NCBI RefSeq assembly: GCF_025643595.1 | Contig: NZ_CP102826.1 | Span: 3,658,001-3,722,000 of the forward strand | From: Saccharopolyspora rosea | GTDB lineage: Bacteria > Actinomycetota > Actinomycetes > Mycobacteriales > Pseudonocardiaceae | Direction of reading: 5' to 3' | DNA length: 64,000 nt | Shown: positions 13,493-32,630 of the stretch, piece after piece | Layout of the letters: every line of letters starts with the position of its first letter | Position numbering within the stretch: the stretch's first letter is position 1 | The notes under the pieces: generated by a model | What the model was told of the DNA's origin: nothing | The model's database searches: none | Seen by the model: the letters and a program-made list of their open reading frames with translations, nothing else | Program-made: the position numbers and the translations under genes

Positions 13493-14150
13493 CGAAACGG
13501 ACCTTCCAGGAAGCGCCAACCATGACGGACAGCTGGGAAAGAGTGCCCTGGATCCCCAACGCACCCGAGGACAAAACCGCGATGAGATCGTCCGCACCGG
13601 AGAACACACCTGCCAGCGTGTCGGGAGCCCCGGCGATCAGGTACCGCGTGGTGCCCGCCCCGACAACGACCTGCTCCAGCCCCTCAGGCCCTTCGGTCAC
13701 CGCAACCAGTACGTCCGGAATTCCCGGCATGGAACGAGATACCTCCCAGAACCGCTGCGCGGCCTCGCGCCAGTCCGGCAGCGGCGGAGACAGGGCGGCT
13801 AGAACCCCGGCAGCAAGGTCGGCATCGCCAGTGGGATCCCCGGCCGGCGCGAACCGCGCGTTCAAGTCGACGGTCAGCGTGACGTCGGGCTCGACCAAAA
13901 CCCCGCTGGACACCTGGATGCCATCCGGAGCGAAGGAGATCGTTGCCGCCTGCGGCGTGTCGTGCGAGCGGATCCCCGCCGTGACGCCCCGTTCCTGCAG
14001 CGGCGCGAACGCGTAGCCGGCGCGAGCCGAATCCCGCAGGGTGCGGCCGATCAAGCGAACGATCGGAGAAGCATCGTCCTCGATCCGGATATCGACCTCT
14101 GCGGGCTCTCGTGCGCCCGCCGTCACCGGGGCCGTCGTGGTTTCGGCCAT
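13485..14150 (-). CDS. SCP2-like domain protein of unknown function
   Basis: 221 residues from ATG 14150, preceded by GAAAGGACC. No catalytic motif or membrane segment is seen. The C-terminal half (YLIAGAPDTLAGVFSGADDLIAVLSSGALGIQGTLSQL) looks like a sterol-carrier-protein-2 fold and the middle (ISFAPDGIQVSSGVLVEPDVTLTVDLN) like a second, weaker copy. It is co-transcribed with, and translationally coupled to, the GS-like ligase, so a hydrophobic-substrate carrier role is possible but inferred. The first codons of this gene recur at 25270-25300, where a second copy has been deleted. Confidence 0.72.
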   Translation of the reverse strand: MAETTTAPVTAGAREPAEVDIRIEDDASPIVRLIGRTLRDSARAGYAFAPLQERGVTAGIRSHDTPQAATISFAPDGIQVSSGVLVEPDVTLTVDLNARFAPAGDPTGDADLAAGVLAALSPPLPDWREAAQRFWEVSRSMPGIPDVLVAVTEGPEGLEQVVVGAGTTRYLIAGAPDTLAGVFSGADDLIAVLSSGALGIQGTLSQLSVMVGASWKVRFDD

Positions 14151-15986: not shown

Positions 15987-16210
15987 GCTCACTTCCAATG
16001 ATCATTTCGCCGTGCGCTGCGATGGCGACGCGCTCCGCGCCGCGACACCACATCTTGACGTCGATTCCCGATCTCGCTCACGAGCTGTCTCCTCCTCGCG
16101 TGTGCCCAAACTCCCTTCCCGGCCGGGGATCGCCCGAGGACGGCCGCGGAACCCGACGAGCCGGAGTGACTCCGACGGGCTCGGGGACGGGACAACTCTC
16201 TGGTGGATCT

Positions 16211-17560: not shown

Positions 17561-17604
17561 TGGACGGCCTCTCGAAAATGCTTTGCTACTCCCGGATGCG
17601 GCGC

Positions 17605-18306
17605 TCAGCCTCGAACAACTCCCTGCTTGTTCGAAGCCGGTTCCGCACCCGTCGCCACGTTGTGGTGGTGCAAAGCGCGGTATGCGGAGAAGTACCCGAA
17701 CAGCTGGCATCCCCAGGTGGCCAGCGCGGCGGCGTAGAAGAGCGTTCGGTGCGCATCGTCGCCCGGAATCGGGAAGAAGTCGTACGTGATCGCGATGACG
17801 GATCCCGCGGCGGTGACCAGCGCCGCGAGGGTGGCCATGCCCTTCGCGCCGATGCGCCAGAGCCGCCACGAGAAGTAGACGAGGAAGAGCGTGGTGAGCA
17901 CGTTGACCACGACGTAGAACGTGGCCGGACCGACGTAAAACGTGGGGGCGCGGAACTGCTGGAGGTACAGCCCGGCGACGATAGCCAGCGCGAACGCGCC
18001 CACATCGACCGTCACGGTCGGCTTGTACCGGTGCGTCACGCGCATCAGGCCCATGACGAGGATGAGTGTGATGCCGACCGATCGCGAGAAGGCGTCGAAG
18101 AAGTACGCGATGCTGTACAGGAAGCTTCCTTCGTCTCCGCCGAGGAGCGCCCAGAGGAGGAAGTTCGAGCCGGACGTGGCGACGATCATCCATTCCAGGC
18201 CGAGCAGGTAGTTGTTGTAGTGTCGGATGAACTTCCATCCGAAGTAGAAGCCGGCGAAGATCATCCAGAGATCGGCCAGCATGAAGAGCAGGTCCTTCAT
18301 GTTCAT
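17605..18306 (-). CDS. Seven-helix integral membrane protein, unknown function
   Basis: 233 residues with about seven hydrophobic helices (for example LADLWMIFAGFYFGWKFI, MIVATSGSNFLLWALL, VGAFALAIVAGLYLQ, FYVVVNVLTTLFLVYFSW) and a short hydrophilic tail. I recognise no transporter family. ATG 18306 has GAAGGA 5 nt before; the upstream extension of the frame is Arg-rich and not gene-like. It is the first gene after the divergent operator region and lies 44 bp ahead of the PuuB-like oxidase, so it is probably a transport or sensing component for the amine. Confidence 0.78.
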   Translation of the reverse strand: MNMKDLLFMLADLWMIFAGFYFGWKFIRHYNNYLLGLEWMIVATSGSNFLLWALLGGDEGSFLYSIAYFFDAFSRSVGITLILVMGLMRVTHRYKPTVTVDVGAFALAIVAGLYLQQFRAPTFYVGPATFYVVVNVLTTLFLVYFSWRLWRIGAKGMATLAALVTAAGSVIAITYDFFPIPGDDAHRTLFYAAALATWGCQLFGYFSAYRALHHHNVATGAEPASNKQGVVRG

Positions 18307-18580: not shown

Positions 18581-18594
18581 TTGACTTAATCAAG
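18581..18594. promoter_or_regulatory. Palindrome upstream of TetR gene
   Basis: TTGACTTAATCAAG, or CTTGA-N5-TCAAG when the preceding base is included. The CTTAATCAAG part recurs exactly at 14229-14238. It overlaps a GTG at 18594, which argues that the TetR protein starts later, at 18633. Confidence 0.55.
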
Positions 18595-18632
18595 TGTCCA
18601 ACGACGTGGACGCCTTGCACTGGGAGGACTTC

Positions 18633-19241
18633 GTGCCACGGATCCCCGTTGCGCAACGACGTAGCGAATTCATCAAAGCCGCTGTCGACGTCATCGCGAT
18701 CTACGGAATCGAAGGCGCAACAACCAGACGGATCGCTGAGCAGGCTCAGGCGAACCTGGCGATGCTGCACTACTGCTACGACTCCAAGGAGGACCTCTTC
18801 GCCGATGTCTACGAGTACGTAGCCAGCAGGTTCCGCGATGTCATCAAAGACAGCGATCCGCACGGCAACTTGGCGGACACAGCTCGCCGGATCCTGCGCG
18901 GAGTCATGGAGTTCTACCTCGAATCACCCAACTTCGCCGCTGCAACACTGGAACTCATCAGCTGGGCACGACGCCAGCGCGGAAACCGCGGTATCACGGT
19001 GTACGAGCAGGCCATGGAAACCGTGCGCGCCACCCTCCGCGGCGCCAGCTCGGACCATCCGATCGAACCAGAAACCATCGATCAGCTCGCCTATGTCCTC
19101 GCCACCTTGGCCGACGGTTTCGCCCTGAACTGGTTCACTTACGGGGATCGGTCCGCCGCAACGGAGCAGATGGAAATCACCACCTCAGTACTCGACAGTT
19201 GGCTCGCGGTTCGGCTCGGATCCGCGCCAGTGGCACCGTGA
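18633..19241 (+). CDS. TetR-family transcriptional regulator of the amine island
   Basis: 202 residues from GTG 18633, which has GGGAGG at 6 nt; a GTG at 18594 is in frame but lies inside the palindrome. The TetR HTH is clear: FIKAAVDVIAIYGIEGATTRRIAEQ then NLAMLHYCYDSKEDLF. The C-terminal ligand domain is typical (YVLATLADGFALNWF). It is divergent from the membrane protein/oxidase operon, and the sites in its promoter recur at the other island promoters, making it the best candidate regulator. Confidence 0.87.
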   Translation: MPRIPVAQRRSEFIKAAVDVIAIYGIEGATTRRIAEQAQANLAMLHYCYDSKEDLFADVYEYVASRFRDVIKDSDPHGNLADTARRILRGVMEFYLESPNFAAATLELISWARRQRGNRGITVYEQAMETVRATLRGASSDHPIEPETIDQLAYVLATLADGFALNWFTYGDRSAATEQMEITTSVLDSWLAVRLGSAPVAP

Positions 19242-19287: not shown

Positions 19288-20751
19288 TCACAACGGCAGC
19301 TCGGGCGAATCGACACCGACGACCCGGTCGCCGCAGAAGACGCGCACCGATTCGGCCGGTCCATGGCCACCGATGCCGGCCGGACCCCAGAAGCTCTGCG
19401 CCGAGTCGTCACCGAGGTCGGCGAGCTTGGCGCCATTGATGCGCACCTCGCCGGACACGATGCGGGAGCCGATGTCGATCGCGCGGTCGGTGTCGGCACC
19501 GAACACGTAGGCGTCGAGGCCCGAGGGATTGGCGTTGGCGACGCGCAAGGCCTGTTCGTCGGAGTCCACTGCGTGCAGCGAGACGACCGGACCGAACAAC
19601 TCGGCGGTGGCCTGAGCAGGGTCGGCGCCGGCGGCGATAGTCGGCGACAAGAAGAAGCCGTCGAGCTCGGGCAGCTGGGCGGGCTCGCGGATGGTCGCGC
19701 CGAGGTCGCGCAGCTCTTCGATCCTGCGCTGGAGGGTCTGGAAGTGCGGCGCGTTGGAGATCGGGCCGATCTCGACGTCCTCATCGAGGGAGTGACCGAC
19801 GACGAGTTTGGAGACTCGCTCGGTCAACGCCTCAAGGAGAGGACCGGCGAGGCTGCGGTGAACGAGGATCTTGCCCGGCCCCTCACACCACTGACCGTTG
19901 AGCTTGGTCATGCCGTCGAGGATGCCGTCGGCGGCGACGTCGAGGTCGGCATCGTCGAGCACGAGCACGGGATTGTTCCCGCCGAGCTCCAGCTGCAAGA
20001 CCTTGAAGTCCTCCGCACCGGCCCGCGCGATGGCTCGGCCCGCACCCGGGCCGCCGGTGAACGAGACGATCTTGATGCGCGAGTCGGCAGTCAGCCCGGC
20101 GCCGACGTCGCCGCCGCCGTGCACCAGCTGCAGTGCGCCGCTGGGCAGCCCCGCCTCCAGGAAGCACTCGACGATGATCTGCGCGCTGCTGGGCGCGTGC
20201 TCCGACGGCTTGAGGATGACGGGGCAGCCAGCCGCGATCGCGCTGGCCATCTTGGCCGCGGGAATGAAGCTCGGGCCGTTCCACGGCGTGAGGATCGCGG
20301 CCGGCCCCCACGGCACCTTGTACAGGCGGACATCGCGGCCGCCGGCCGCCAGCGCGGTGACACGCGGGATGTTCACCAGGTCCGACGCCGCCGCCCGGAT
20401 CCTCGCGGGCAGGAAGGCCGCGACCGTGCGCGTGACGCTGATGGGCGTGCCGCTGGTCAGCGAATCCGTGCGTGCGATGTCCTCGGCACGGGCCTCGATG
20501 ATCTCGGCTACGCGCTCGAACATGTCGGCGCGCTCACGCCGAGCGCCCTCGTCCCAGTGGCCGATGTCGTACACGCGCTCCGCGTGCCGCAGCGCGCGTT
20601 CGAGATCCCCGGGTGCTGTCGTGACCTGGCGGTGGACGGGCTCGCGCGTGTTGGGGTCGACGTTCCACGCGTCCTCCACCGTCGCGCACTCGCCCCAATC
20701 GTCGGCGATGTAGTTCACCGGCTGGGGAATCGTGGGCTGGTTGCTCGCCAT
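19288..20751 (-). CDS. NAD(P)-dependent aldehyde dehydrogenase
   Basis: 487 residues from ATG 20751, with GAGGTGAG upstream. The catalytic Glu is in LQLELGGNNPVLVLDDADLD and the catalytic Cys in LNGQWCEGPGKILVHRS, both at the usual spacing; SFTGGPGAGRAIAR is the nucleotide-contact segment. It would oxidise the aldehyde made by the island's oxidase or alcohol dehydrogenase to an acid. It is the last gene of the operon that begins near 25300 and follows the alcohol dehydrogenase with a 28-bp gap. Confidence 0.9.
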   Translation of the reverse strand: MASNQPTIPQPVNYIADDWGECATVEDAWNVDPNTREPVHRQVTTAPGDLERALRHAERVYDIGHWDEGARRERADMFERVAEIIEARAEDIARTDSLTSGTPISVTRTVAAFLPARIRAAASDLVNIPRVTALAAGGRDVRLYKVPWGPAAILTPWNGPSFIPAAKMASAIAAGCPVILKPSEHAPSSAQIIVECFLEAGLPSGALQLVHGGGDVGAGLTADSRIKIVSFTGGPGAGRAIARAGAEDFKVLQLELGGNNPVLVLDDADLDVAADGILDGMTKLNGQWCEGPGKILVHRSLAGPLLEALTERVSKLVVGHSLDEDVEIGPISNAPHFQTLQRRIEELRDLGATIREPAQLPELDGFFLSPTIAAGADPAQATAELFGPVVSLHAVDSDEQALRVANANPSGLDAYVFGADTDRAIDIGSRIVSGEVRINGAKLADLGDDSAQSFWGPAGIGGHGPAESVRVFCGDRVVGVDSPELPL

Positions 20752-20779
20752 GGAGCTCACCTCGGCGTTCACTCGGTGG

Positions 20780-21877
20780 TCAGGACTGGAGATCGACGAC
20801 GATGCGGGTCACATCTCCGGACTTCATCGCCTCGAAGCCCTCGTTGATCTCGGCGAACGGAATGACGCGCGTGACCATCTCGTCGAGCAGCAGACGTCCC
20901 TGCTGGTACAGGCGCGCGAGCTGACCGATGTCCTGCCGTGCCTGGCCCGAGCCCATGTAGGAGCCGATGAGTCGCTTCTCCTCGAAGAAGAAGTTCGATG
21001 CCGGGACGCTGAGCTCGGTGCCCCCGGGCGCGATCCCGACCAGGCACGCGGTACCCGTCGGGCGCACGAGGGCCAGGGCCGTCGCCGCGGTGCGGGCCGA
21101 GCCGACCGCTTCGAACGAGTAGTCCACCCCGTCACCGAGCCGGCGGTGGAGTTCCGCGACCGGGTCGCAGTCCCCGCCGTTGATGACGTGGGTGGCCCCG
21201 TAGCCGCGTGCAGCCTTGAGTCGTGCGTCGTCCAGGTCGATCGCGACGATGACCGAGGCACCGGCGAGCCTGGCACCCTGGATGATCGCCGACCCCACGC
21301 CGCCGCAGCCGATGACCGCGACCGTGCTGCCCGGTCGTACCTGAGCGCCGCGGAAGACCGCGCCGACGCCGGTGATGACACAGCAGGCCAGGAGGCACCC
21401 GACGTGCAGCGGCACGTCGTCGGGGAGCTTCACCAGCGCGTCCTCGCGCATGAGGATGTGCCGGGAGAACGCCCCGATGGCACCGAGTCGCTCGATCGAC
21501 CGACCGCTCGTGGTCTGGAACGCCGGCCGCGGGCGGCGGCGGATCTCCGCCAGGCGCCGGCACTGGGTCGACCGTCCTGCCTCGCAGTTGATACAGCGGC
21601 CGCAGGAGGGGGTCAGCGCGCCGACCACGCGGTCGCCGCGGCGCAATCCGGTCACCTCGGAGCCGACGGACTCGACCACGCCGGCCACCTCGTGCCCGAC
21701 CACGACCGGCAGGTCGGTCGGCACCGTTCCGGTCATGTAGTGCAGGTCGCTGTGGCACAGCCCCACGTTCGTGACCGCGACCCGCACCTCGTGCGGTTCC
21801 GGGTCGTCCACCCGGATGGTGGTCAGTTCGAGCTGCTCGTTGACCGCGGTGAGCACCGCGGCCGTGGTGTCGATCAT
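20780..21877 (-). CDS. Zinc-dependent alcohol dehydrogenase
   Basis: 365 residues from ATG 21877 (GAGGAAT upstream). It has the catalytic-zinc Cys in VGLCHSDLHYMTG, the GHEVAGVVESVG segment, the structural-zinc cysteines CGRCINCEAGRSTQC, and the nucleotide fold VAVIGCGGVGSAIIQGARLAGA. It resembles class III-like or long-chain alcohol dehydrogenases. In the proposed pathway it would oxidise the hydroxy acid released from a lactone; aldehyde dehydrogenase follows immediately. Confidence 0.9.
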   Translation of the reverse strand: MIDTTAAVLTAVNEQLELTTIRVDDPEPHEVRVAVTNVGLCHSDLHYMTGTVPTDLPVVVGHEVAGVVESVGSEVTGLRRGDRVVGALTPSCGRCINCEAGRSTQCRRLAEIRRRPRPAFQTTSGRSIERLGAIGAFSRHILMREDALVKLPDDVPLHVGCLLACCVITGVGAVFRGAQVRPGSTVAVIGCGGVGSAIIQGARLAGASVIVAIDLDDARLKAARGYGATHVINGGDCDPVAELHRRLGDGVDYSFEAVGSARTAATALALVRPTGTACLVGIAPGGTELSVPASNFFFEEKRLIGSYMGSGQARQDIGQLARLYQQGRLLLDEMVTRVIPFAEINEGFEAMKSGDVTRIVVDLQS

Positions 21878-21930
21878 GTCGATTCCTCTGAGATCGGTCG
21901 GTGAAGGTGGTGGCGAGCCCGGGGCGACGG

Positions 21931-24333
21931 TCAGGCTCTGTTGCCTCTGGCGGACCAGTAGCGCTCGATCCCCGCACTGAGGGCTCCGCTCTCCCACGCC
22001 GTGCTCGCCGCGCGGTCCTCACGGGCGAAGGCCGCTTCGATCTCCGCTGCCTGCGGGCGCAGGAGCGCGAGGTGAAGGGCTGTCGTGCTTCCCTCGGGTG
22101 TCCACTCGATGGCGGTGTCGATGGCGCGGCCGACGAGCTCGCCGGGCTCGACGATCTCGTCGAGGAGCCCGATCCGCAGGGCCTCGTCGGCTCGGATGCG
22201 CGGGGATCCGAGGATCATGCGCATCGCGTGATTCCCGACGAGGCGTCTGAGCAGCACGCTGGACGCGTTCGAGATCGTGAGGCCCCGGATGTTCTCCGGC
22301 TGGTAGTACTCCGTGGCCGGGGTTCCGATGCGGGTGTCGCAGCACAGGGTGATCTCCGAGGCTCCGCCGACCGCGAGTCCGTTGACGGCCGCGACCACGG
22401 GAACCCGGGTCTCCAGGATGGCCCGGGTGATGTCGTGGAAGCTCTCGACCGCCGCCCGGACCTCGGCGTCCGTCGAGGGCGCGTTCTGGAGGTCCTCACC
22501 CGCGGAGAAGGCCCGGCCCGCGCCGGTGAGCACGATCCCGCGCACGCGCTCGCCGGTGCCGAACCCGCGGATGGCCGCGGCCAGCCGCAGCCGGGTGGCG
22601 ACGTCCAGCGCGTTGAGCTTGTCGGGACGCTGGAATGTCAGCACCGCGACGCCCCGGATGACGTCGACGTCAAGGGATCCTGCACCGGACGCCGTGTGCG
22701 ACGCGGTGCTGTTCCTTCGTGCACCGAGGTCGTAGGTCACGCCGGGATCGTCTTTGGCGCGGGCCTTGAGCGCGGGCTTGGAGACGCGTTCGGACGGCGT
22801 CCTGGGGAAGTCGGCGACGAACTCGATGTAGCGCGGCACCTTGAAGCGAGCGAGCTCCTTGCCTGCCCGCTCGACGATCCCCTCAGCGGTCGCCCGATCG
22901 GCCGGTACGCCGGCCACCAGCTGGACGAAGGCTTTGATCTCCTCACCGAGGATCTCGTCGGGTTCGGCGACGACGACCGCCGCGACCACCCGGTCGTCTC
23001 GTTCCAGGGCGGCCTCGACCTCGACGCTCGCGACGTTCTCGCCGCCGCGTCGCACCATGTCCTTGATCCGCCCGACCAGCTGGATGCCGCCGTCGGGGCG
23101 GCGGACCGCGAGATCGCCGGTGTGCAGCCACCCCTCCCGCAGGGTCCGCGCGGTGTCGTCCGGGCGGTTCCAGTAACCGTTCATCATCGGTGTGCCCGTG
23201 ATGATCAGCTCCCCCGGCCCGCCATCGGGCACGTCGGTGCCGTCGGGATCGACGACGCGGACCCGCTTCGTGGGCACCGCGTGTCCCAGGCTCCCGCTTC
23301 CCACGGCGCCGGTGTCGTCGAACGGGCTGAACAGGTCGATCCCGGATTCGGTCATCCCGTAGACCTCGCGCCACGGTGCGCCCCAACGCTCCTCCAGCTG
23401 CGCGTGCAGGCCGACCGGGATGCCCGAGCAGAACACGAGTCGGAGGTCGTTGTCGCGGTCCTCCGGGGCAGGCGGCTGCTTGAACAACAGGGTCGGCATC
23501 GACCCGAGGACGTAGCAGAACGTCGCGCGGTGCCGGCGAACGTCCGCCATGAAGGTCGACGCGGAGAACCGGGGCAGCACGACCAGGGGAGCGCCGACCG
23601 TGAGGGCGAGCGCGGTGTTCCACTGTGGATCCATGTAGGAGAACGGCTGAGCCGTCAGGAGCACGTCCCCTGGCCCGAGCCCGGTCGCCGCTGCGCAGAT
23701 CCAGCCCAGCCGGACCCAGTAGTCGTGCGGGAGCATGCACGCTTTCGGGAACCCGGTCGTGCCGGAGGTGTACTGCAGGTTCGCCAGCGTTGCCGCGTCG
23801 ACCGGCACCGCGGGCGCGGTGTCCGGGTAGTGCTCGGATCCGTCGTCGGCGACGTCGACGACGCGGACGTCGGCGAGCCCCGCCTCGGCGGCCGTGACAT
23901 CGGCGACCAGCCCGGACCGCTCGGCGTCGGTGAACACGACGCGTGCCCCCGAGTCCCGGAGGACGAAGTCGAGGTCGGCCCGCCGGTAGGAGGAGTTGAT
24001 CGGTACGGCGACCGCCCCCGCCTTCAGCGCGGCGAGCCAGACGAGGGGCCAGTGCACGACGTTCGGGAGCATGATCGCCACCCGGTCGCCCGGCTGGATG
24101 CCGTCGACTTCGATCATCCGGTGCGCCAGCCGGGAGCTCCAGGCGTCGATCTCGGCGAAATTCCAGGACCATTCGCCGAATCGCAGGAACTCCCGTTCCG
24201 GTGAGTCCTGCGCGCGCTGCGACAGCAGCTCGGTCAGGGTCGGGATAGTGGGGTCATCACCCATCTGCTCGGGCTGCACGACTGGTCCCGGTCGGGTTCG
24301 ACCGGCTTGCTCGGCCGCCACGTTCGCGGTCAT
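21931..24333 (-). CDS. Fused acyl-CoA ligase (ANL) and enoyl-CoA hydratase (crotonase)
   Basis: 800 residues in one frame. Residues about 1-540 are an AMP-forming CoA ligase: P-loop YTSGTTGFPKACMLP, YGMTESG, WLHTGDLAVRRPDGGIQLVGR and the C-terminal RTPSERVSKPALK typical of carnitine/cyclic-acid CoA ligases. A 20-residue linker leads to a full crotonase domain: FQRPDKLNALDVATRLRL, GAGRAFSAGEDL and AAVNGLAVGGASEITLCCD, the oxyanion-hole segments. No start codon with a ribosome-binding site occurs at the junction. The start overlaps the PuuD-like stop (ATGA). Activating an acid and hydrating its enoyl-CoA in one chain is unusual. Confidence 0.85.
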   Translation of the reverse strand: MTANVAAEQAGRTRPGPVVQPEQMGDDPTIPTLTELLSQRAQDSPEREFLRFGEWSWNFAEIDAWSSRLAHRMIEVDGIQPGDRVAIMLPNVVHWPLVWLAALKAGAVAVPINSSYRRADLDFVLRDSGARVVFTDAERSGLVADVTAAEAGLADVRVVDVADDGSEHYPDTAPAVPVDAATLANLQYTSGTTGFPKACMLPHDYWVRLGWICAAATGLGPGDVLLTAQPFSYMDPQWNTALALTVGAPLVVLPRFSASTFMADVRRHRATFCYVLGSMPTLLFKQPPAPEDRDNDLRLVFCSGIPVGLHAQLEERWGAPWREVYGMTESGIDLFSPFDDTGAVGSGSLGHAVPTKRVRVVDPDGTDVPDGGPGELIITGTPMMNGYWNRPDDTARTLREGWLHTGDLAVRRPDGGIQLVGRIKDMVRRGGENVASVEVEAALERDDRVVAAVVVAEPDEILGEEIKAFVQLVAGVPADRATAEGIVERAGKELARFKVPRYIEFVADFPRTPSERVSKPALKARAKDDPGVTYDLGARRNSTASHTASGAGSLDVDVIRGVAVLTFQRPDKLNALDVATRLRLAAAIRGFGTGERVRGIVLTGAGRAFSAGEDLQNAPSTDAEVRAAVESFHDITRAILETRVPVVAAVNGLAVGGASEITLCCDTRIGTPATEYYQPENIRGLTISNASSVLLRRLVGNHAMRMILGSPRIRADEALRIGLLDEIVEPGELVGRAIDTAIEWTPEGSTTALHLALLRPQAAEIEAAFAREDRAASTAWESGALSAGIERYWSARGNRA

Positions 24334-25127
24334 TGCAAGCTCCTCTGCATCTCGTCACCGCAGTGGGCCGCCGCGGCCTGGACGATCCACGTGAACGTCG
24401 GGTCCGCGCTGTTCATCCACTCCGGGTGCCACTGGACTCCGAGCACCGGCGCTCCTGGGAGCTCGACCGACTCGATCACGCCGTCACTGGTCCGCCCGGT
24501 GACGACCAAGCCGGTGCCGCAGCGGTCGACGGCCTGGTGGTGCCAGGAGTTGGTCGTGGCGTGTTCGCCGAACAGGCCGGCGGCGATCGAGCCGGGCTCG
24601 AAGGTCACCAGGTGATCGTCGGGGCCGTCGGTCGGCGCGGCCTCCGCCGACAGATGGCTCACGGAGCCAGGCGGAAGATCGGCGACGAGCGTGCCGCCGA
24701 GCGCGACGTTGAGCACCTGCAGGCCCCGGCACACACCCAGCACGGGAATCTCCCGTTCCAACGCGGCCCGGACGAGCGCGATCTCGTACTCGTCCCGGGC
24801 CCCGTCGTGCACCATCGGGTCCGTCCGGGGATCGATGTCGCGGACCACTGACGTGTCGCCACCCCAGCACGCCGGATGGACGTCCTGTCCGCCGGTGATC
24901 ACGACCCCGGACAGCCACTGGCACACGTCCGTCGCGTCGGTGTCGTAGGACAGGTGCACCGGGAGCCCTCCGGCCTCCGCGATCCGGGTCGCGAAGTCGG
25001 ACATGCAGCTGTCGACACAACGGTCGCCGTACCGCTCGTCAGCTCCCTTGATCAGGTCCAGCCGGTACCGCCGCCCGGTGACGCCGATCAACGGCCGCCT
25101 CATGGCGGCCCCGTCACGCGCGCTCAC
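24330..25127 (-). CDS. PuuD-like class I gamma-glutamyl amidohydrolase
   Basis: 265 residues from a GTG overlapping the mini-ORF stop (GTGA). The Cys nucleophile is in VLGVCRGLQVLNVALGGTL and the His-Glu pair in GVQWHPEWM, the triad of gamma-glutamyl-GABA hydrolase (PuuD). It would release glutamate from a gamma-glutamylated carboxylate. An ATG eight codons in is possible, but the GTGA coupling is shared with the truncated copy at 12122. It is followed with ATGA overlap by the ligase-crotonase fusion. Confidence 0.88.
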   Translation of the reverse strand: MSARDGAAMRRPLIGVTGRRYRLDLIKGADERYGDRCVDSCMSDFATRIAEAGGLPVHLSYDTDATDVCQWLSGVVITGGQDVHPACWGGDTSVVRDIDPRTDPMVHDGARDEYEIALVRAALEREIPVLGVCRGLQVLNVALGGTLVADLPPGSVSHLSAEAAPTDGPDDHLVTFEPGSIAAGLFGEHATTNSWHHQAVDRCGTGLVVTGRTSDGVIESVELPGAPVLGVQWHPEWMNSADPTFTWIVQAAAAHCGDEMQRSLQ

Positions 25128-25300
25128 GGCAGTTCGAAGTAACGAGCCGACTCCCATTCCGAGAGCTCGGCGAACGGGTCGCCGCCAGCGGTGTGGAACT
25201 GCACCCACTCCCGCGTGATCCAGTAGTCGACGAACTCGTCGTCGAAGATCTCGGGCGGGATCTGGTCGACGTGGGGGCCGTCATGGTTTCGGTCATCCAT
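25124..25300 (-). CDS. Mini-ORF: start of SCP2-like gene joined to the tail of the GS gene
   Basis: 58 codons from ATG 25300 with GAAAGGACC just upstream. The last 25 residues, from QFHTAGGDPF onward, are identical to the C-terminus of the GS-like ligase at 12119. The DNA around the start (CGAAAGGACC, then CCGAAACC and GACGGCC) matches the start of the SCP2-like gene at 14150. So a former SCP2-GS gene pair has lost about 1.9 kb internally. No catalytic GS part remains; translation may now only serve to couple ribosomes to PuuD. Confidence 0.75.
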   Translation of the reverse strand: MDDRNHDGPHVDQIPPEIFDDEFVDYWITREWVQFHTAGGDPFAELSEWESARYFELP

Positions 25301-25374
25301 CGGTCCTTTCGACTTGCGCGAGCTCACGCGACACGTCGGAGCCGCGCCGTCTCGAACTGCCGGGAGCAGTTCTT

Positions 25375-25408
25375 AGTCATATGACTCGAACGAATGACTA
25401 TGATGGTG
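25375..25408. promoter_or_regulatory. Divergent promoter with island operator, copy 2
   Basis: AGTCATATGACT (25375-25386) is a perfect 12-bp palindrome, followed by TATGATGGTG (25399-25408), identical to 14256-14265. It lies between the mini-ORF/PuuD operon and the forward esterase gene. Confidence 0.65.
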
Positions 25409-25467
25409 CGGTATGGATCACAACGTGTCAACACCGTCCGCGCCACCTCCTCCGAAAGGTCCCTCGC

Positions 25468-26442
25468 ATGACCAAGCCAGTCCCCCCGAGCTGGGAACAC
25501 CTCGACGCCGACGCGCTGCTCGTCGCTAAGGCGATCGCGGAGGCGTTGCCGGCGTCCATCCGCGAACTCGGAGCCGAGGCGGCCCGGGAGCTGTTGGCGA
25601 GCGCGCCGCCCGACTCTCCGCTGACACCCCTCGACCGAGTCGAGGAGGTGGCCGTGCCGACCCGTGCCGGACAACTTCGCGCACGCCGCTACCAACCGCC
25701 CCGTGCGCGAACCATGAGTCCGCGACCGATGCTGCTGTATCTCCACGGCGGTGGATTCGTTCTCGGGACCCTCGACGGAGTGGACGAGGTCTGCCGCGCC
25801 ATCACCGCACGTTCGGGATGGGAGGTGCCCTCCCTGGAGTACCGGCTCGCCCCGGAACACCCCTACCCTGCGGCCCTCGAAGACTCGCTCGACACGTTCA
25901 CCTGGCTCCGCGAGTCAGCCGGCGATCTGGGCATCGATCCGGACCTGATCGCCGTCGGCGGTGACTCCGCGGGCGGCAACCTCGCCGCCGCACTCTGCCT
26001 CTCTCTCCGGGACCGCGGACTCGCACTGCCCGCGTCACAAGTCCTCGTCTACCCCGCGGTCGACGACCGGTTCGCCAGACCCTCCTGGACTCAGTTCGCC
26101 GACGCGCCCCTGCTGACCGCGGCCGACGCGCGGTGGTTGTGGGAACAGTACGTCGGCTCCGAGCGCCAAGGCGACGTCGATCAGTACGCCGCCCCCATGA
26201 AGGCGGCGTCCCTCCGTGGCTTGCCGCCAGCCCTGATCCTCACCGCCGAGGTCGATCCGCTGCGCGACGACGCCGAGGCGTACGCCGAACGGCTGCGAAA
26301 CGACGGCGTGCCCACTACCTCCATTCGCCACTCGGGCGTGTTCCACGGGTTCTTCACCGAGGTCGGCGTCTTCGGCAAGACCGACGCGGCGATCGATGAC
26401 GTGGTCCGGCACCTGCGCGGCATCGCCAGCGCGAGGCATTGA
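25468..26442 (+). CDS. HSL-family alpha/beta hydrolase (esterase/lactonase)
   Basis: 324 residues from ATG 25468 (GAAAGG upstream). The hormone-sensitive-lipase signature is complete: oxyanion motif YLHGGGFVLG at about residue 95, nucleophile GDSAGGN at about 165, Asp in TAEVDPLRDDAEAYAE and His in GVFHGFFTE. In the proposed pathway it would open the lactone made by the Baeyer-Villiger enzyme encoded next. The 103-bp gap to that gene holds another operator. Confidence 0.9.
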   Translation: MTKPVPPSWEHLDADALLVAKAIAEALPASIRELGAEAARELLASAPPDSPLTPLDRVEEVAVPTRAGQLRARRYQPPRARTMSPRPMLLYLHGGGFVLGTLDGVDEVCRAITARSGWEVPSLEYRLAPEHPYPAALEDSLDTFTWLRESAGDLGIDPDLIAVGGDSAGGNLAAALCLSLRDRGLALPASQVLVYPAVDDRFARPSWTQFADAPLLTAADARWLWEQYVGSERQGDVDQYAAPMKAASLRGLPPALILTAEVDPLRDDAEAYAERLRNDGVPTTSIRHSGVFHGFFTEVGVFGKTDAAIDDVVRHLRGIASARH

Positions 26443-26471
26443 CTGTCGTCACAACGCACAGCTACCTTCTT

Positions 26472-26497
26472 GGTCACCTGACTCAGACCATTGACTA
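26472..26497. promoter_or_regulatory. Island operator upstream of the monooxygenase
   Basis: GGTCACCTGACT (26472-26483) followed by TGACTA; 19 of 28 bases match 25375-25402 in the same order. It implies a separate, co-regulated promoter for the monooxygenase operon. Confidence 0.55.
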
Positions 26498-26545
26498 CCT
26501 CGCTGTGGCCTGTCGACACATCCAGACCACGAGAAGGCAGAGGCC

Positions 26546-28204
26546 ATGACCAACACCAACTCCACCGGCCACGTTGTCGACATCCTGTGCGTCGGTGCCG
26601 GGTTCTCCGGCCTGTACGCCGCATACAAGGCAGCCGAGCAGGGCTGGACGTTCGCCGGATACGAAAAGGCACCCGACGTTGGCGGTACCTGGTTCTGGAA
26701 CACCTATCCGGGCGCGCGGTGCGACGTCGAGAGCATCTACTACTCGTACTCGTTCAGCGAGGAGCTCCAGCAGGAGTGGACCTGGAGCGAGCGTTTCGCC
26801 CCGCAGTCCGAGATTCTGCGCTACCTCAACCACGTCGCCGACCGCTTCGACCTGCGCCGGCACTTCCGGTTCGACACCACGGTGGTGGCGGCGAACTGGC
26901 TTGCCGACGAGCAGGTCTGGGAGCTGACCCTCGACTCCGGCGAGACCCGCCGTGGTCGCTACCTCGTGGCCGCCTCGGGCGGGCTCTCCACACCGAAGGA
27001 CGCCGACGTGCCCGGCATGGAGAACTTCACCGGGCTGACCGTGTCGACGAGCCGCTGGAACATCTCGCTCGACGACCTCGCCGGCAAGCGGGTCGCGGTC
27101 ATCGGCACCGGATCGTCGGGCGTGCAGTGCATCCCGCTCATCGCTGAGGTGGCCGAGCACCTCACCGTGTTCCAGCGGACTCCCAACTGGGTCTTCCCGG
27201 CCCGCAACGCCACATTGCCCCCGGAGACCGTCGCGGAGATCAAGAACAGGTATCCCGCGATCCGCGAGGAGTGCCGGCACTCCCCCGGCGGCATCCCGGA
27301 CCGTCCGGTGACCGACCGCGCCTTCGACGTCTCCGACGAGGAGCGTCAGCGGCGCTACGAGGAGGCTTACGAGCGCAGCGGATTCCTCGGCGTGGGCGCG
27401 GAATTCGCCGACCTCCTCACCGACCGCAGGGCCAACGAGACCGCGGCCGAGTTCATGCGCCAGAAGATCCGGCAGATCGTCCACGATCCACGGACCGCGT
27501 CCCTTTTGGAGCCCCAGTTTCCCCTGGGCGCACGGCGCAGCTGTTTCGGAACCGGCTACTACGAGACGTTCAACCGTCCGAACGTCTCGCTCGTCTCGCT
27601 GCGCGAAGAACCGATCACGACCATGACCTCCGGCAGCATCGTCACCGAAGGCGGGTCTTACGACGTGGACGCCATCGTCCTCGCCATCGGTTTCGACGCC
27701 TTCACCGGGCCACTGTTCGCGCTCAACGTCACCACGCCGCACGCCGGCACACTGCGGGACGCCTGGCGTGACGGGGTGCGCACCTACTTGGGCATCATGA
27801 CCGCCGGATTCCCCAACTTCTTCATGGTCGGGGGCCCGCAGAGCCCGGCGCTGGCGAGCAACGTCGCGGTCACGATCGAGCAGGCGGTCGACTGGATCGC
27901 CGACCTGATCACCTATGCCAGGACCACGGGCCGCGAGGTCGTCGAACCCACCACGCAGGCCCAGGACGACTGGGGGAACATCACCGAGACCACGGTCAAC
28001 CAGACGCTCTACGCGACGACCGACTCCTGGTACCGCGGCTCCAATGTGGACGGCAAGCCGACGACCTTCCTCGGCTACGTCGGTGGCGTCGGCAAGTACC
28101 GCCGCATCTGCACCGAAATCGCCAAGCGCGGCTACCCCGGCGTCATGATCGGCGGACAGGCCGTCGCTCCCGGAATCGGCCGCATCGACGAGGAGATCTC
28201 ATGA
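26546..28204 (+). CDS. Type I Baeyer-Villiger monooxygenase (cyclohexanone monooxygenase-like)
   Basis: 552 residues with FAD motif CVGAGFSGLYAAYKAAEQG, NADPH motif VAVIGTGSSGVQ, the long fingerprint GGTWFWNTYPGARCD ([AG]GxWxxxx[FY]P[GM]xxxD), and the late CHMO-type segments SIEQ-like TIEQAVDWIADLI and WYRGSNVDGKP. It should insert oxygen into a ketone to give an ester or lactone using NADPH and O2. The short fingerprint FxGxxxHxxxW[PD] reads FTGLTVSTSRWN, so its His is Ser and the last residue Asn. It overlaps the next gene (ATGA). Confidence 0.88.
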   Translation: MTNTNSTGHVVDILCVGAGFSGLYAAYKAAEQGWTFAGYEKAPDVGGTWFWNTYPGARCDVESIYYSYSFSEELQQEWTWSERFAPQSEILRYLNHVADRFDLRRHFRFDTTVVAANWLADEQVWELTLDSGETRRGRYLVAASGGLSTPKDADVPGMENFTGLTVSTSRWNISLDDLAGKRVAVIGTGSSGVQCIPLIAEVAEHLTVFQRTPNWVFPARNATLPPETVAEIKNRYPAIREECRHSPGGIPDRPVTDRAFDVSDEERQRRYEEAYERSGFLGVGAEFADLLTDRRANETAAEFMRQKIRQIVHDPRTASLLEPQFPLGARRSCFGTGYYETFNRPNVSLVSLREEPITTMTSGSIVTEGGSYDVDAIVLAIGFDAFTGPLFALNVTTPHAGTLRDAWRDGVRTYLGIMTAGFPNFFMVGGPQSPALASNVAVTIEQAVDWIADLITYARTTGREVVEPTTQAQDDWGNITETTVNQTLYATTDSWYRGSNVDGKPTTFLGYVGGVGKYRRICTEIAKRGYPGVMIGGQAVAPGIGRIDEEIS

Positions 28205-29559
28205 CGGCATCAGCAGACGTGCGTGCGGAGACTCGCGAGATCGTCGTGGTCGGCGCCGGCATGGCGGGGTTGATGGCGGCGACCACCCTGGCCGACCGGG
28301 ACGTCGTCGTGCTCGAAGCAGCCGGCCGCGCCGGCGGGCGTGTGGAGTCGGTTCGCCAGGGCGACTACTGGATCAACCTCGGCACCCAGTTCACGGAGGG
28401 AACCGGTCCCCTGATCGACGCCCTCGAACGCCACCAGATCACCATGGGGACGCTGGCGGGCAAGAAGGTGGCCCTCGCGCTGCGCGGAAAGCAGATCGAC
28501 ACCTCCAATCCGTTCGGCCTGATGGTTCGCTCCCGGATGAGCTTCCTGGACCGGGTCGGGCTGGCGGCGGTCGGAGCCCGCATCCTCGCGGCAGTGCCAT
28601 TCCTGGAGTTGAACCCGGAGAACCAGCTGGCGAAGCGGGTCCGGGCCAGGCTCGACGCCCGATCCGCCTCCTACGTGCTCCGCGGAATCCGCTCCAAGGT
28701 CGCCCGGGACATGGTCAGGTCCTGGTCCGGGCAGTGGATGGGATGCGAGCCCGAGGAGACGGCTGCGACGCAGTTCGTCATCTCGATGGGGATCCTGCTG
28801 ACCGACCCGGCGAAGGTCCCGAACTTCGCCCTGCCGGAAGGGGGAAACCAAACCCTCACCGACATCCTGGCGGCCGACCTCGGTGATCGCCTGCGCCTGA
28901 ACTCACCGGCGAAGTCGGTCGAATGGACCAACGACGGCGTCGTCGTGGACTACGAGGACGACAACGGACCGGCTCGGATCCGCGCCCGCCGTGCGATCGT
29001 GGCCGTTCCCGGCGATGTGGCCGTGAAGATCATGCCTGGCCTGCCGCCTGAGTACCGGGCGGCGTTCGACGACATCCACTACGGCCGGTACGTGGTCGTG
29101 GGCTTCTTCACCCATGAAGAAGGGCCGCAGCTGTGGGACGACTACATCGCCGTGTCGACGCCCCAGATGTCGTTCCAGGCGATGTTCAACCACGCCGCGG
29201 CCCTGCGCGGTCCCGGCCCGCGGAAGCCCGGTGGCGCGCTGGCCTGCTTCGCCGGCGGCGCGGTGGCCGACCGGCTGTTCGAGCTCACCGACTCCGAGAT
29301 CGTCGCCCGGTTCACCGCGGACCTCGTTGCGCTCTATCCCGAACTCAAGGGAAAGCTCGGCGACACGTTCGTGCGACGTCACCGGCGGGTCGTGCCGTTC
29401 TGGCCACCCGACCGACGTGCCTCACTGCCGACGCTGCGTGAGCCCCTCGGCCCCGTCCACCTGGCCGGCGACTACCAGCTCGACATGCCCTCACTCGCCG
29501 ACGCGGCCGCCTCGGGTGAGCGCGCCGCGCAGCAGGTTCGGGCGAGCCTGTACCGCTGA
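28201..29559 (+). CDS. Flavin monoamine oxidase family protein
   Basis: 452 residues with the amine-oxidase FAD signature VVVGAGMAGLMAATTLADRDVVVLEA, AGGRVESV, YWINLGTQF, the mid-protein VPGDVAVKIMPGLP and the C-terminal LAGDYQLDMPSLADAAASGERAA. It would oxidise an amine to an imine and so to a ketone or aldehyde. Its start overlaps the monooxygenase stop, implying stoichiometric co-expression: amine oxidase then Baeyer-Villiger enzyme is the order of cyclohexylamine breakdown. A desaturase role cannot be excluded. Confidence 0.82.
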   Translation: MTASADVRAETREIVVVGAGMAGLMAATTLADRDVVVLEAAGRAGGRVESVRQGDYWINLGTQFTEGTGPLIDALERHQITMGTLAGKKVALALRGKQIDTSNPFGLMVRSRMSFLDRVGLAAVGARILAAVPFLELNPENQLAKRVRARLDARSASYVLRGIRSKVARDMVRSWSGQWMGCEPEETAATQFVISMGILLTDPAKVPNFALPEGGNQTLTDILAADLGDRLRLNSPAKSVEWTNDGVVVDYEDDNGPARIRARRAIVAVPGDVAVKIMPGLPPEYRAAFDDIHYGRYVVVGFFTHEEGPQLWDDYIAVSTPQMSFQAMFNHAAALRGPGPRKPGGALACFAGGAVADRLFELTDSEIVARFTADLVALYPELKGKLGDTFVRRHRRVVPFWPPDRRASLPTLREPLGPVHLAGDYQLDMPSLADAAASGERAAQQVRASLYR

Positions 29560-29586
29560 CCCTCCGCTCGCATCCGAAAGGTCACC

Positions 29587-30819
29587 ATGTCCGCCCTTCC
29601 CACCCCGGTCCGCCAGGCGGACCGGCTCTACCACGACCTGCTTTCCCCTGCGGAGATCCGGGAGTTCCGGGACCGCGCACGCAAGATCGCCGCCGACGTG
29701 GTCGCACCCTCCGCACGCCGGATCGCCGACGGCGACGAACGCGTCGACGGCTTCCCCCGGGACGTCTTCGACGGTCTCGCCTCCGCCGGGCTGTTCCGGG
29801 TGCCCTTCGCCGCCGAGGTGGGCGGCGACGGCCTCGCGCACCCGGTCACCGCGATCGCCGTCGCGATCGAGGAGCTGGCGTACTACTCCAGCAGCATCGC
29901 GGCGGTGTTCGACGTGCACTGCATCCTGGCCGGCAATGCACTGACCCACGGCACCCCAGCACAGCAACAACAGTGGCTGTCCCAGGTCACCAACGGCTCC
30001 GTCGTCGGCGCCTTCGCCACCACCGAGCCCGACGCATCCTCCGACCTGAGCCCGCACGCGGTCCAGACGATCGCCGTCCAGCACGGCGACGCCTGGATCC
30101 TCAACGGCCGCAAGCGCTGGATCTCCAACTCGCCGGTCGCAGGACTCGTCGTCACCCTCGCCCGCACCGGCGACCGGCTCTCGATGTTCGTCGTCGACAC
30201 TTCCCTGCCCGGAGTTCGAGTCGGCGAACCCGACCAGAAGATGGGCAACCGCGGCCAGCTCACCGCCGACGTGTGGTTCGAGGACGTCGAGCTGGCAAGC
30301 GACTGCTTGCTCGGCGGCCAGCCTGGGCACGGACTCCGTCACGCGCTCGCCACGCTCACGCTTGGCCGCATCGGCATCGCCGCCGCCGGTGTCGGCATGG
30401 CCCAGGCCGCCTTCGACCACGCTGTCGCGCACCTATCGACGCGGGAGGCGTTCGGGCGAAAACTGGCCACCAACCAGCACTGGCAGTTCCTGATGGCCGA
30501 CCGCGCCACGGAGATCGAGAACGCCCGCAACCTCTACCTCAAGGCCGCGCTGCGCCGTGACGCCGGCGAGGCGTTCCCCGAACCGGAAGCCGCGATGGCG
30601 AAGCAGTACAGAAGCCGGCTGGCGGTCGACATGGCCCGCGATGCGGTCCAGGCGTTCGGTGGTCTCGGCTTCGCTCGGGAGCTCGGCGCCGACGGCACGC
30701 CGGGTCCGGTCGAGGCGATCTACCGCGACAGCAAGATCGGGGAGATCTACGAAGGCACCAACGAAATCCTGAAATGGATCATCGCTCGCGACATCTTCGG
30801 CAAGGAGATCACCGGATGA
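29587..30819 (+). CDS. Acyl-CoA dehydrogenase
   Basis: 410 residues with the complete family pattern: GAFATTEPDASSD, LNGRKRWISNSPVAGL, REAFGRKLATNQHWQFLMAD, AVQAFGGLGFARE and the C-terminal IYEGTNEILKWIIARDI holding the catalytic Glu segment. It introduces a trans-2 double bond into an acyl-CoA with FAD. It lies 27 bp after the amine oxidase gene and overlaps the SDR start (ATGA), so it is part of the same operon. Confidence 0.92.
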   Translation: MSALPTPVRQADRLYHDLLSPAEIREFRDRARKIAADVVAPSARRIADGDERVDGFPRDVFDGLASAGLFRVPFAAEVGGDGLAHPVTAIAVAIEELAYYSSSIAAVFDVHCILAGNALTHGTPAQQQQWLSQVTNGSVVGAFATTEPDASSDLSPHAVQTIAVQHGDAWILNGRKRWISNSPVAGLVVTLARTGDRLSMFVVDTSLPGVRVGEPDQKMGNRGQLTADVWFEDVELASDCLLGGQPGHGLRHALATLTLGRIGIAAAGVGMAQAAFDHAVAHLSTREAFGRKLATNQHWQFLMADRATEIENARNLYLKAALRRDAGEAFPEPEAAMAKQYRSRLAVDMARDAVQAFGGLGFARELGADGTPGPVEAIYRDSKIGEIYEGTNEILKWIIARDIFGKEITG

Positions 30820-31640
30820 GCCTCGCGGGACGCACCATGCTCATGTCGGGCGGCAGTCGCGGCATCGGCCTGGCGATCGCCATCGCCGCCGCCCGCCGCG
30901 GCGCCAACGTGATTCTGCTGGCCAAGACCGACACTCCGGACCCTCGGTTGTCCGGCACCATCCACACCGCTGCCGCGGAGATCGAGGCCGCTGGCGGCAG
31001 TGCGCTTGCCGTCGTCGGGGACGTCCGCGACGAGGCATCGGTGCAGCGAGCTGTCGAACGAGGCGTGGACAGGTTCGGAGGCATCGACATCGTGGTCAAC
31101 AACGCTTCCGCGCTGGCGATCGACGGCACAGACACGCTGACGCTGAAGCGGTTCGACCTGATGACCGACATTCAACTGCGCGGCACCTACCTGCTCTCCA
31201 GCAAGGCCCTCCCCCATCTGCGCAAGGGGACCAACCCGCACATCCTCTCGCTGAGCCCACCCCTCAACCTGTCCCCCGCCTGGCTCGGGAAGCACCCGGC
31301 TTACACGATGGCCAAGTACGGCATGACGATCCTGACCCTCGGGTGGGCGGCGGAGTACGCCGAACACGGCGTGGCCGCCAACTGCTTGTGGCCCGAGACC
31401 TACATCGCCACTGACGCGGTGAAGAACATCCTCGGCGGCGACGCCGCGATCGACAGGTCACGCTCGCCCGAGATCGTGGCCGATGCCGCCGGCATGATCC
31501 TCGACCGGCCCGCAAACGAGTGCACCGGCAACACATTCCTCGACGTCGAGGTGCTCCGGGACGCCGGAGTCACCGACCTGTCCTCGTACGGCGGCACAGG
31601 GGAACTCAAGTACGACATCTTCGTCGACCGACCGCGATGA
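30816..31640 (+). CDS. Short-chain dehydrogenase, HSDL2-like
   Basis: 274 residues from ATG 30816, overlapping the acyl-CoA dehydrogenase stop. Classical SDR motifs: SGGSRGIGLAIA, DIVVNNASAL and the catalytic YTMAK; the segments PHILSLSPPLNLSPAW and ECTGNTFLDVEVLRDAGVTDL resemble the HSDL2 branch, linked to fatty-acyl or hydroxy-acyl oxidation. A beta-hydroxyacyl-CoA dehydrogenase-like role would complete the beta-oxidation set of the operon. Confidence 0.87.
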   Translation: MSLAGRTMLMSGGSRGIGLAIAIAAARRGANVILLAKTDTPDPRLSGTIHTAAAEIEAAGGSALAVVGDVRDEASVQRAVERGVDRFGGIDIVVNNASALAIDGTDTLTLKRFDLMTDIQLRGTYLLSSKALPHLRKGTNPHILSLSPPLNLSPAWLGKHPAYTMAKYGMTILTLGWAAEYAEHGVAANCLWPETYIATDAVKNILGGDAAIDRSRSPEIVADAAGMILDRPANECTGNTFLDVEVLRDAGVTDLSSYGGTGELKYDIFVDRPR

Positions 31641-31731
31641 CGACGTACACGGCCGCGCTCGGGCCAACGAGCGGACCCCCCGTTCCAACCGCGGGCGAGC
31701 AAGCCCGCCGCGAGGCTCATGAGGAATCACG

Positions 31732-32630
31732 ATGCTGAACCTGTCGATGCTGCTCGAAGACTCCGCCCGCAAGTACCCCGACCGCGAAGCTGTGGTACTG
31801 GGCCCGACCCGCCTGACCTACAGCCAGGTGAACGCCGCGGCCAACCAGGTCGCGAACCTGCTCGTGGAGCGCGGGATCCGCCCCGGTGACAGAGTGGCCC
31901 TCAGCTGCCCGAACCTGCCGCACTTCCCGGTCGTCTACTACGGCATCCTCAAGACCGGCGCGGCTGTCGTCCCGCTCAACGTGCTCCTGAAAGACCGCGA
32001 GATCGCCTACCACCTGGACGACGCCGACGTGAAGGCCTATTTCTGCTTCGAGGGCACCCCCGAGTTGCCCCTGTGCGCCGAGGGCTTCGCCGGCTTCAAA
32101 CAGGTCGACCCGGTCGAGCACTTCTTCGTCATCACCGACGACCCGGCCGCCCGCAGTCCCATCGACGGCGTCGAGACGCTCGGCAGTGCCCTCGTCGGCC
32201 ATGGCACAACGTTCGACTCAATACCGACCGAGCCGACCGACACGGCGGCCATCCTCTCTTCCGCACCGGCGACCTCGCACGACGCGACGAGGACGGCTTC
32301 TACTACATCGTCGACCGCTCGAAGGACCTCATCATCAGGGGCGGCTTCAACGTGTATCCGCGTGAGGTCGAAGAAGTCCTCATGAAACATCCGGAGGTCA
32401 GCTTGGCCGCCGTCATCGGCGTCGCCCACGACAGCCACGGCGAGGAGATCAAGGCCTTCGTCATCCTCCAGCCCGGCGCGTCCCTCACCCCCGACGAGCT
32501 CATCGCGTGGGGCAAGGACCAGATGGCGTCTTACAAGTACCCGCGCATCGTCGAGTTCGTCCCCAGCCTGCCGATGACCGCAACCGGAAAGATCCTCAAG
32601 CGCGAGCTGGCCCGCAGAACAACGGAGTGA
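31732..32630 (+). pseudogene. Long-chain acyl-CoA ligase with internal out-of-frame deletion
   Basis: The 5' part is a normal ANL ligase N-terminus (MLNLSMLLEDSARKYPDREAV to PTEPTDTAAIL). Directly after the codons for AAIL, where YTSGTTG should follow, the DNA jumps to the segment FRTGDLARRDEDGFYYIVDRS in a different frame, which continues correctly to the C-terminus (PMTATGKILKRELARR). About 210 residues, including the ATP-binding P-loop, are missing. The join is near 32256 at a CTCT tetramer. It is the last gene of the forward operon. Confidence 0.85.

Follow-up and report, generated by a model that had tools for sequence, protein, structure and literature searches.

What do the enzymes of two divergent gene runs in Saccharopolyspora rosea degrade? 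The runs lie in a 64,000-nucleotide stretch of DNA (positions 3658001–3722000 of a 6.56-Mb single-contig genome; hereafter the window, within which all coordinates are given) and have a strong coding signal at third codon positions (GC3). The initial annotation saw in them a cyclohexylamine/cyclohexanone route, unexpectedly joined to a gamma-glutamylation set that might form a second branch. The open reading frames (ORFs) that it named are present where it placed them, and their families agree with Pfam scores for the aldehyde dehydrogenase (ALDH), alcohol dehydrogenase (ADH), CoA ligase-crotonase fusion, C26 hydrolase, esterase, FMO-like, Amino_oxidase, glutamine-synthetase-like (GS-like), DAO, acyl-CoA dehydrogenase (ACAD) and SDR proteins. 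The wider idea of an amine-catabolic cluster, combining an amine-oxidase-fold enzyme, an enzyme of the Baeyer-Villiger monooxygenase (BVMO) family, an esterase, two dehydrogenases and CoA-ester steps, is borne out as well. The particular route is not, and the gamma-glutamylation set, more constant than any other part, forms the core of the system and is not a neighbour of it. We tentatively read the operon pair as serving the catabolism of an amine whose product would be an aminoketone, most probably a 2-substituted cyclic imine in its open form.

The genes clearly belong together. Named genomes were scanned once with the ligase-crotonase fusion (21931..24333, minus strand; PF00501 247 bits, PF00378 121 bits) as query; of the 116 relatives obtained, the best 80 were taken as loci, so the presence of the fusion itself is no evidence. 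Genes were counted per locus with thresholds that we set, and the 10 kb flanks and contig ends make all counts lower bounds. The cluster is present in 65 of the 80 loci, confirming the co-conservation in other actinomycetes that the initial annotation had raised, and the fusion stands alone in 15. All 65 cluster loci carry the GS-like ligase and the C26 hydrolase, 64 a small SCP2-like protein, 64 the ADH and 62 the ALDH; a BVMO of one of two variants, A or B, is found in 64 and an esterase in 63. A membrane protein (61 loci), a DAO-type oxidase (58), a TetR regulator (56) and a monoamine oxidase (MAO)-fold oxidase (49) come next, followed by a hot-dog lyase (43), an MFS transporter (21), an AMP ligase (17), ACAD (12), an amino-acid permease and a PucR regulator (11 each), SDR and a true MAO (10 each) and an imine reductase (8). 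Order is kept too, with the SCP2-like, GS-like and C26 genes adjacent in 63/65 loci, ligase, ADH and ALDH in 62/65, and the full six-gene run in 40. Because the same gene set recurs in 65 of 80 loci, in these fixed orders, the cluster is real, widely conserved and more than a chance association. We found no description of it in the open-licence literature, to which our search was confined, subscription papers being outside its scope.

A second sampling gives the same picture within the family. Of 249 family genomes, 14 have an ortholog of the MAO-fold oxidase; 11 of these 14, and none of the others, have the SCP2-like gene (Fisher p 8e-17, kinship uncorrected); the two genes are 3.6–5.6 kb apart in 10 genomes and 14.7 kb apart in that of the window. 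Across 396 genomes of the phylum the SCP2-like gene was found only in the window's genome and in one other, G284, and the cluster is therefore patchy. In G284 a distant SCP2-like–GS–C26 trio (L125:7498–11005) sits beside patatin-like and signalling genes, which give no clue to the substrate.

The core itself consists of the GS-like ligase (12119..13492, minus strand; PF00120 265 bits), a putative gamma-glutamyl-amine synthetase, the zinc ADH (20780..21877, minus; PF08240/PF00107), the ALDH (19288..20772, minus; PF00171 340 bits) and the PuuD-like C26 gamma-glutamyl hydrolase (24330..25208, minus; PF07722 175 bits). Catalytic Cys and Glu motifs are kept in 62/62 aligned rows of the ALDH, the GHE motif in 63/63 of the ADH, the nucleophile Cys in 51/51 of the hydrolase, and HGGG and GDSAG each in 28/28 of the HSL-type esterase (25381..26442, plus; Abhydrolase_3 236 bits); the catalytic motifs of the GS-like ligase are kept in its aligned rows as well. 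Since these motifs are conserved, the core enzymes, window copies included, look functional in general. What they act on is less easily read from their relatives. The GS-like ligase is far below the GlnA cut-off, and the cut-offs of the equivalog models of the Puu pathway are missed throughout: that of gamma-glutamylputrescine synthetase by the GS-like ligase (173 vs 650 bits), that of PuuC by the ALDH (177 vs 850) and that of the Puu hydrolase by the C26 hydrolase (84 vs 266). The best matches of the DAO-type oxidase, ADH and ligase are generic and gave no substrate clue; for the DAO-type oxidase the nearest NCBIfam models are aminophosphonate oxidoreductase and L-pipecolate oxidase, both far below cut-off. 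The divergent SCP2-like protein (13485..14150, minus), whose gene lies upstream of the GS-like gene, is predicted to bind a small molecule or lipid. A search with PF02036 gave no match for the window's own copy, and its ortholog in L046 reaches 18.6 bits (E 0.0025), under the Pfam cut-off of 21.3. Its AlphaFold 2 (AF2) model (pLDDT 86) has SCP2 domains as top Foldseek matches, at E about 1e-3 and TM to target of 0.35–0.58 among the top 20. The window's copy of the cluster is rearranged, the SCP2-like and GS-like genes having moved to 12–14 kb, apart from the C26 gene.

The enzyme that would cut the carbon skeleton is the PAMO-like BVMO (26546..28204, plus). It scores 528 bits to phenylacetone monooxygenase (PAMO, 1w4x), 516 to steroid monooxygenase (STMO) and 461 to cyclohexanone monooxygenase (CHMO), and by these alignments is nearer the first two than the third. 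Type I BVMOs are described, in the part of the source available to us, by a first consensus G/AGxWxxxxF/YPG/MxxxD together with GxGxxG/A, and by the fingerprint FxGxxxHxxxWP/D (PMC5407406). The window's protein agrees with the former, having GGTWFWNTYPGARCD and GAGFSG, and departs from the latter, where it has FTGLTVSTSRWN with Ser for His. This Ser is found in 38/39 rows of variant A, the clade of the window, the 39th being a 69-residue fragment, and the last letter of the fingerprint there is N in 29, T in 8 and D in 1; variant B has His in 25/26 rows, the remaining row again a fragment. When the rows were counted again under a filter on position, Ser stood in 38/39 and His in 24/26, one overlong ORF being missed. 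Judged from the aligned rows, the replacement is a clade-wide change and not an error. Other motifs of variant A are kept in its 39 rows, a GGTW...NTYPGARCD type in all six patterns listed and SWY in 38 rows, and the Arg of the K/R-R-S motif is present in all patterns listed. Variant A takes the place in the operon that the canonical variant B has elsewhere, and both come with an esterase. Going by the record titles, some genomes have both variants, for example those of Rhodococcus koreensis (L102, L060), Gordonia asplenii (L092, L056) and Nocardia rhizosphaerihabitans (L082, L101), and in one Amycolatopsis (L064) a variant-A cluster begins directly after a variant-B cluster.

What becomes of the released amino acid? 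In the cluster loci with a hot-dog gene, which include 34 of the 37 that have a variant-A BVMO only, this small gene adjoins that of the BVMO. Among solved structures, beta-alanyl-CoA:ammonia lyase is the closest to its product (67.7 bits; the next match has 22), and three full-length cluster copies score 151.2, 149.7 and 155.8 bits against NF052388, the 3-aminobutyryl-CoA ammonia lyase model, with its cut-off of 160. Because the gene resembles beta-aminoacyl-CoA ammonia lyases, it points to a beta-amino acid as the likely intermediate in most relatives. Lyase relatives occur in 103 of the 249 family genomes, mostly at about 55–65% identity; seven copies at 82–100% are all in cluster-bearing genomes, and four other cluster-bearing genomes, the window's included, gave no relative at E 1e-15. 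One of the relatives at ~60%, in L130, passes the NF052388 cut-off with 195 bits. It adjoins, in this Pseudonocardiaceae-family genome (L130:2448–5166), the gene of the lysine 5,6-aminomutase alpha subunit, itself over cut-off. These relatives and the neighbourhood in L130 suggest aerobic use of the lysine fermentation route. The cluster lyase, about 60% identical to the Kal-type copy beside lysine 5,6-aminomutase, is a paralogue of it, and resembles both Kal (3-aminobutyryl-CoA ammonia lyase) of lysine fermentation and beta-alanyl-CoA:ammonia lyase. As to the window, the sequence of its crotonase half, read by eye, presumably keeps two Glu motifs and is without the Pro-containing loop of common hydratases. 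In the beta-valine pathway, as far as the available extract goes, a CoA ligase works with the crotonase-type beta-aminoacyl-CoA ammonia lyases BvaB1/B2 (PMC4619459). By analogy, the ammonia-loss step in the window's genome may be done by the crotonase half, or it may have been lost.

Gene content, families, conserved order and active-site motifs are observed; from these we infer every reaction, the step order and the substrate class of the following scheme. The MAO-fold oxidase and/or the DAO oxidase would convert the amine to an imine or ketone, and the GS-like ligase would gamma-glutamylate the amine, preventing re-cyclisation or elimination. The BVMO would then insert oxygen next to the carbonyl, and hydrolysis of the resulting ester by the esterase would leave a carboxylic acid plus a gamma-glutamyl amino alcohol; were the regiochemistry the opposite one, the products would be an alcohol plus a gamma-glutamyl amino acid. 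ADH and then ALDH would oxidise the alcohol, and the C26 hydrolase would take off the glutamate. The ligase half of the fusion would make a beta-aminoacyl-CoA, from which ammonia would be lost through the hot-dog lyase in most relatives, or perhaps the crotonase half in the window, before hydration. ACAD and SDR would process the other fragment. This is the simplest scheme to employ almost every gene; no role falls in it to the SCP2-like and membrane proteins. Parts of this chemistry have precedents in the published sections that we could consult: BVMOs including PAMO convert N-protected beta-aminoketones, and a lipase then yields a beta-amino acid and a beta-amino alcohol (PMC7986699), while a GS–dehydrogenase–ALDH–amidohydrolase series has been proposed for ethanolamine (PMC6529630). 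A cyclic imine as the origin is suggested by the need for protection, the imine-reductase relatives in eight of the cluster loci and the pairing of beta-amino acid and gamma-aminobutyrate (GABA) endings described next; it is the weakest part of the pathway.

That pairing comes from plasmids. The SCP2-like protein matches only 4 of 72,556 plasmid records. On pDND3A of Rhodococcus gordoniae (L127) it is accompanied by relatives of the GS-like ligase, ADH, ALDH and C26 hydrolase (42% identity for the SCP2-like protein, then 58, 46, 32 and 44%), a variant-B-like BVMO (43%) and an HSL relative (41%), with the core in the order SCP2-like–GS–ADH–ALDH. No match to the ligase-crotonase or lyase was found there; genes annotated as gabT (GABA transaminase) and succinate-semialdehyde dehydrogenase (SSADH) are nearby. 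RQCS_2 of R. qingshengii (L128) has SCP2-like, GS, ADH, C26, amidase and ALDH genes, BVMO and imine-reductase relatives (34% for the former) and a PhyH dioxygenase, and Tsukamurella plasmid 9 carries the variant-B form of the cluster. The BVMOs of the plasmid relatives L127, L128 and L129 have the fingerprint His. By their gene content, the two reduced plasmid forms keep glutamylation, alcohol and aldehyde oxidation, C26 and a BVMO, and part ways in the predicted fate of the amino acid.

Several observations weigh against the aminoketone pathway. The BVMO clade of the window is without the fingerprint His. The lyase scores just under its NCBIfam cut-off of 160, is absent from 22/65 cluster loci (18/25 of those with variant B only), and was not found at E 1e-15 anywhere in the window's own genome. 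Only the 8/65 loci mentioned have an imine reductase, leaving the cyclic-imine part weak. In L127 the GABA genes lie on the opposite strand and a regulator intervenes, and the pathway does not explain the two PhyH dioxygenases found there. The 15 loci with the fusion alone have no other cluster gene except weak (25–30%) ADH or SDR matches. Finally, 3 of the 14 family genomes with the oxidase are without the SCP2-like gene: in G157 the oxidase is on a short contig, and G038 and G199 have no core in the stretch fetched.

How do other explanations compare? The cyclohexylamine-type route, in which an exocyclic amine would yield a cyclic ketone, lactone, hydroxy acid, dicarboxylate and CoA ester, with gamma-glutamylation as a separate branch, has the enzyme classes in plausible number, and it shares amine oxidase, BVMO, esterase, ADH and ALDH with the known CHAO and ChnBCDE system; cyclohexylamine oxidase is among the MAO-fold structural matches, and the BVMO also matches CHMO, with 461 bits. 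The subfamilies of oxidase and BVMO appear to differ, however. The window's oxidase (28201..29559, plus; PF01593 (Amino_oxidase) 129 bits) has 54 bits to its best solved relative in a sequence search at E 1e-5, and cyclohexylamine oxidase is absent among the 60 of 61 matches listed, whereas a control, a true MAO from a related locus, has 230 bits to that enzyme. Its AF2 model (pLDDT 77) supports an amine-oxidase fold, with monoamine and putrescine oxidases as top Foldseek matches (TM about 0.7–0.8); because cyclohexylamine oxidase (TM 0.72–0.77, ranks 35–36) matches no better than other monoamine oxidases, the fold does not decide the subfamily. With the BVMO nearer PAMO and STMO, no place for the GS-like ligase and C26 hydrolase of all 65 loci and no explanation for the lyase of 43, we regard this route as very improbable. 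The CHAO–ChnBCDE system is not known to have a glutamylation core. An amphetamine/phenylacetone substrate was rejected: no such cluster was found in the literature searched, and glutamylation would be left unexplained.

A loss of Baeyer-Villiger activity has also to be considered, variant A being then an N- or S-monooxygenase or amine hydroxylase through its His-to-Ser change. The clean split between the variants (38/39 against 25/26 rows) speaks for it, but the other BVMO motifs are kept and the operon slot and esterase are shared with variant B, and we hold it improbable. Polyamine or amino-alcohol catabolism of Puu or GlnA4 type, which would lead to beta-alanine or GABA and leave another substrate to BVMO and esterase, seems to us unlikely, though a little less so. 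In the Puu putrescine pathway of Escherichia coli a GS-like ligase, a DAO-type oxidase, an ALDH and a C26 hydrolase act together, the glutamate protecting the amino aldehyde; the window cluster shares all four and adds BVMO, esterase, ADH and CoA ligase. All Puu models are far below cut-off, however, and the near-constant BVMO (64/65) and esterase (63/65) are hard to set aside. The joint presence of GS-like ligase, ADH, ALDH and gamma-glutamyl hydrolase does agree with a GlnA4-like amino-alcohol logic, with a different hydrolase family: the Streptomyces coelicolor cluster SCO1610–SCO1615 likewise unites these four functions and is the basis of the proposed ethanolamine route, whose later steps are its authors' predictions, while its hydrolase belongs to another family and the accessible text mentions no BVMO, esterase, flavin oxidases, SCP2-like protein or CoA steps (PMC6529630). 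Rather unlikely, yet the most serious of these alternatives, is an acyclic beta-aminoketone or diamine pathway, in which the carbonyl would be beta to nitrogen, BVMO and esterase would free the gamma-glutamyl beta-amino acid directly and ADH and ALDH would process the alcohol fragment. It has an exact chemical precedent in the N-protected beta-aminoketones, as reported in the available portion of PMC7986699, and the ammonia lyase family acts on 3-aminobutyryl- and beta-alanyl-CoA. Against it, ADH and ALDH adjoin the ligase in 62/65 loci and follow the GS-like gene in the ligase-less plasmid relatives, which suggests action on the glutamylated fragment, and the GABA genes of L127 do not fit a beta-amino acid. 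The beta-valine pathway of Pseudomonas sp. SBV1 (BvaA, BvaB1/B2) is alike in its CoA ligase and crotonase-family lyase and unlike in having a ligase of phenylacetate-CoA-ligase type, separate genes and, in the insert listed in the available extract, no glutamylation or BVMO (PMC4619459).

The remaining genes of the two runs complete the picture. An MFS transporter (14529..15998, minus; PF07690 117 bits) has a relative at at least 45% in the 21 loci counted above. The DAO-type FAD oxidase (16211..17560, minus; PF01266 196 bits; DAO or DAO2 type among relatives) had been annotated as a 'PuuB-like' ORF at 16211–18238, which is overlong, its first ~225 codons running out of frame over the gene of a conserved multi-pass membrane protein (17605..18300, minus; no Pfam match; TMP or u289 type in relatives). 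The TetR-family regulator follows (18594..19241, plus; PF00440). Beyond the oxidase are ACAD (29587..30819, plus; PF00441 and partners; counted at at least 60% identity and limited by the 10 kb flank) and SDR (30774..31640, plus; PF00106; NCBIfam PRK08278 410 bits, cut-off 250). The stretch 31732–32630 (plus) does not form a single ORF: residues 1–183 and 398–515 of an intact ligase relative in L072 match in different frames and the middle 214 codons are missing, so from its sequence this second acyl-CoA ligase is evidently a broken relic. The two divergent runs of the initial annotation stand, and three gene models are revised, at the DAO-type oxidase, at the SCP2-like gene before the GS-like one and at the terminal ligase; the annotation had named neither the SCP2-like and membrane proteins nor the ammonia lyase of the relatives and the broken ligase. 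Elsewhere in the window, a molybdopterin oxidoreductase and an FAD/NAD reductase gene adjoin at 9988–11384, and an aromatic amino acid lyase (37283–38734; PF00221, 388 bits), with an RpiR/SIS regulator and a sugar-type transporter after it, does not accompany the cluster in the other loci compared. In the whole genome the flavin amine oxidase family has 19 matches, some of them short FAD-domain pieces.

Should the aminoketone pathway prove correct, actinobacteria would have a further complete route of amine degradation, which would account for a conserved block of about a dozen genes in Streptomyces, Amycolatopsis, Nocardia, Nocardioides, Rhodococcus, Gordonia and Mycobacterium. A bolder generalisation, which we regard as possible but doubtful, is that actinobacteria have evolved Baeyer-Villiger cleavage with a natural protecting group: glutamate would be attached to the nitrogen of an aminoketone captured from its cyclic imine, the ketone would be cleaved, and the length of the amino acid set free would decide the terminal module, CoA ligase and ammonia lyase for a beta-amino acid or transaminase and SSADH for GABA, with one clade using a His-to-Ser BVMO. 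That clade offers a natural test of the role of the fingerprint His, and the enzymes of the cluster would make beta-amino acids and amino alcohols as chemists do from N-protected aminoketones.

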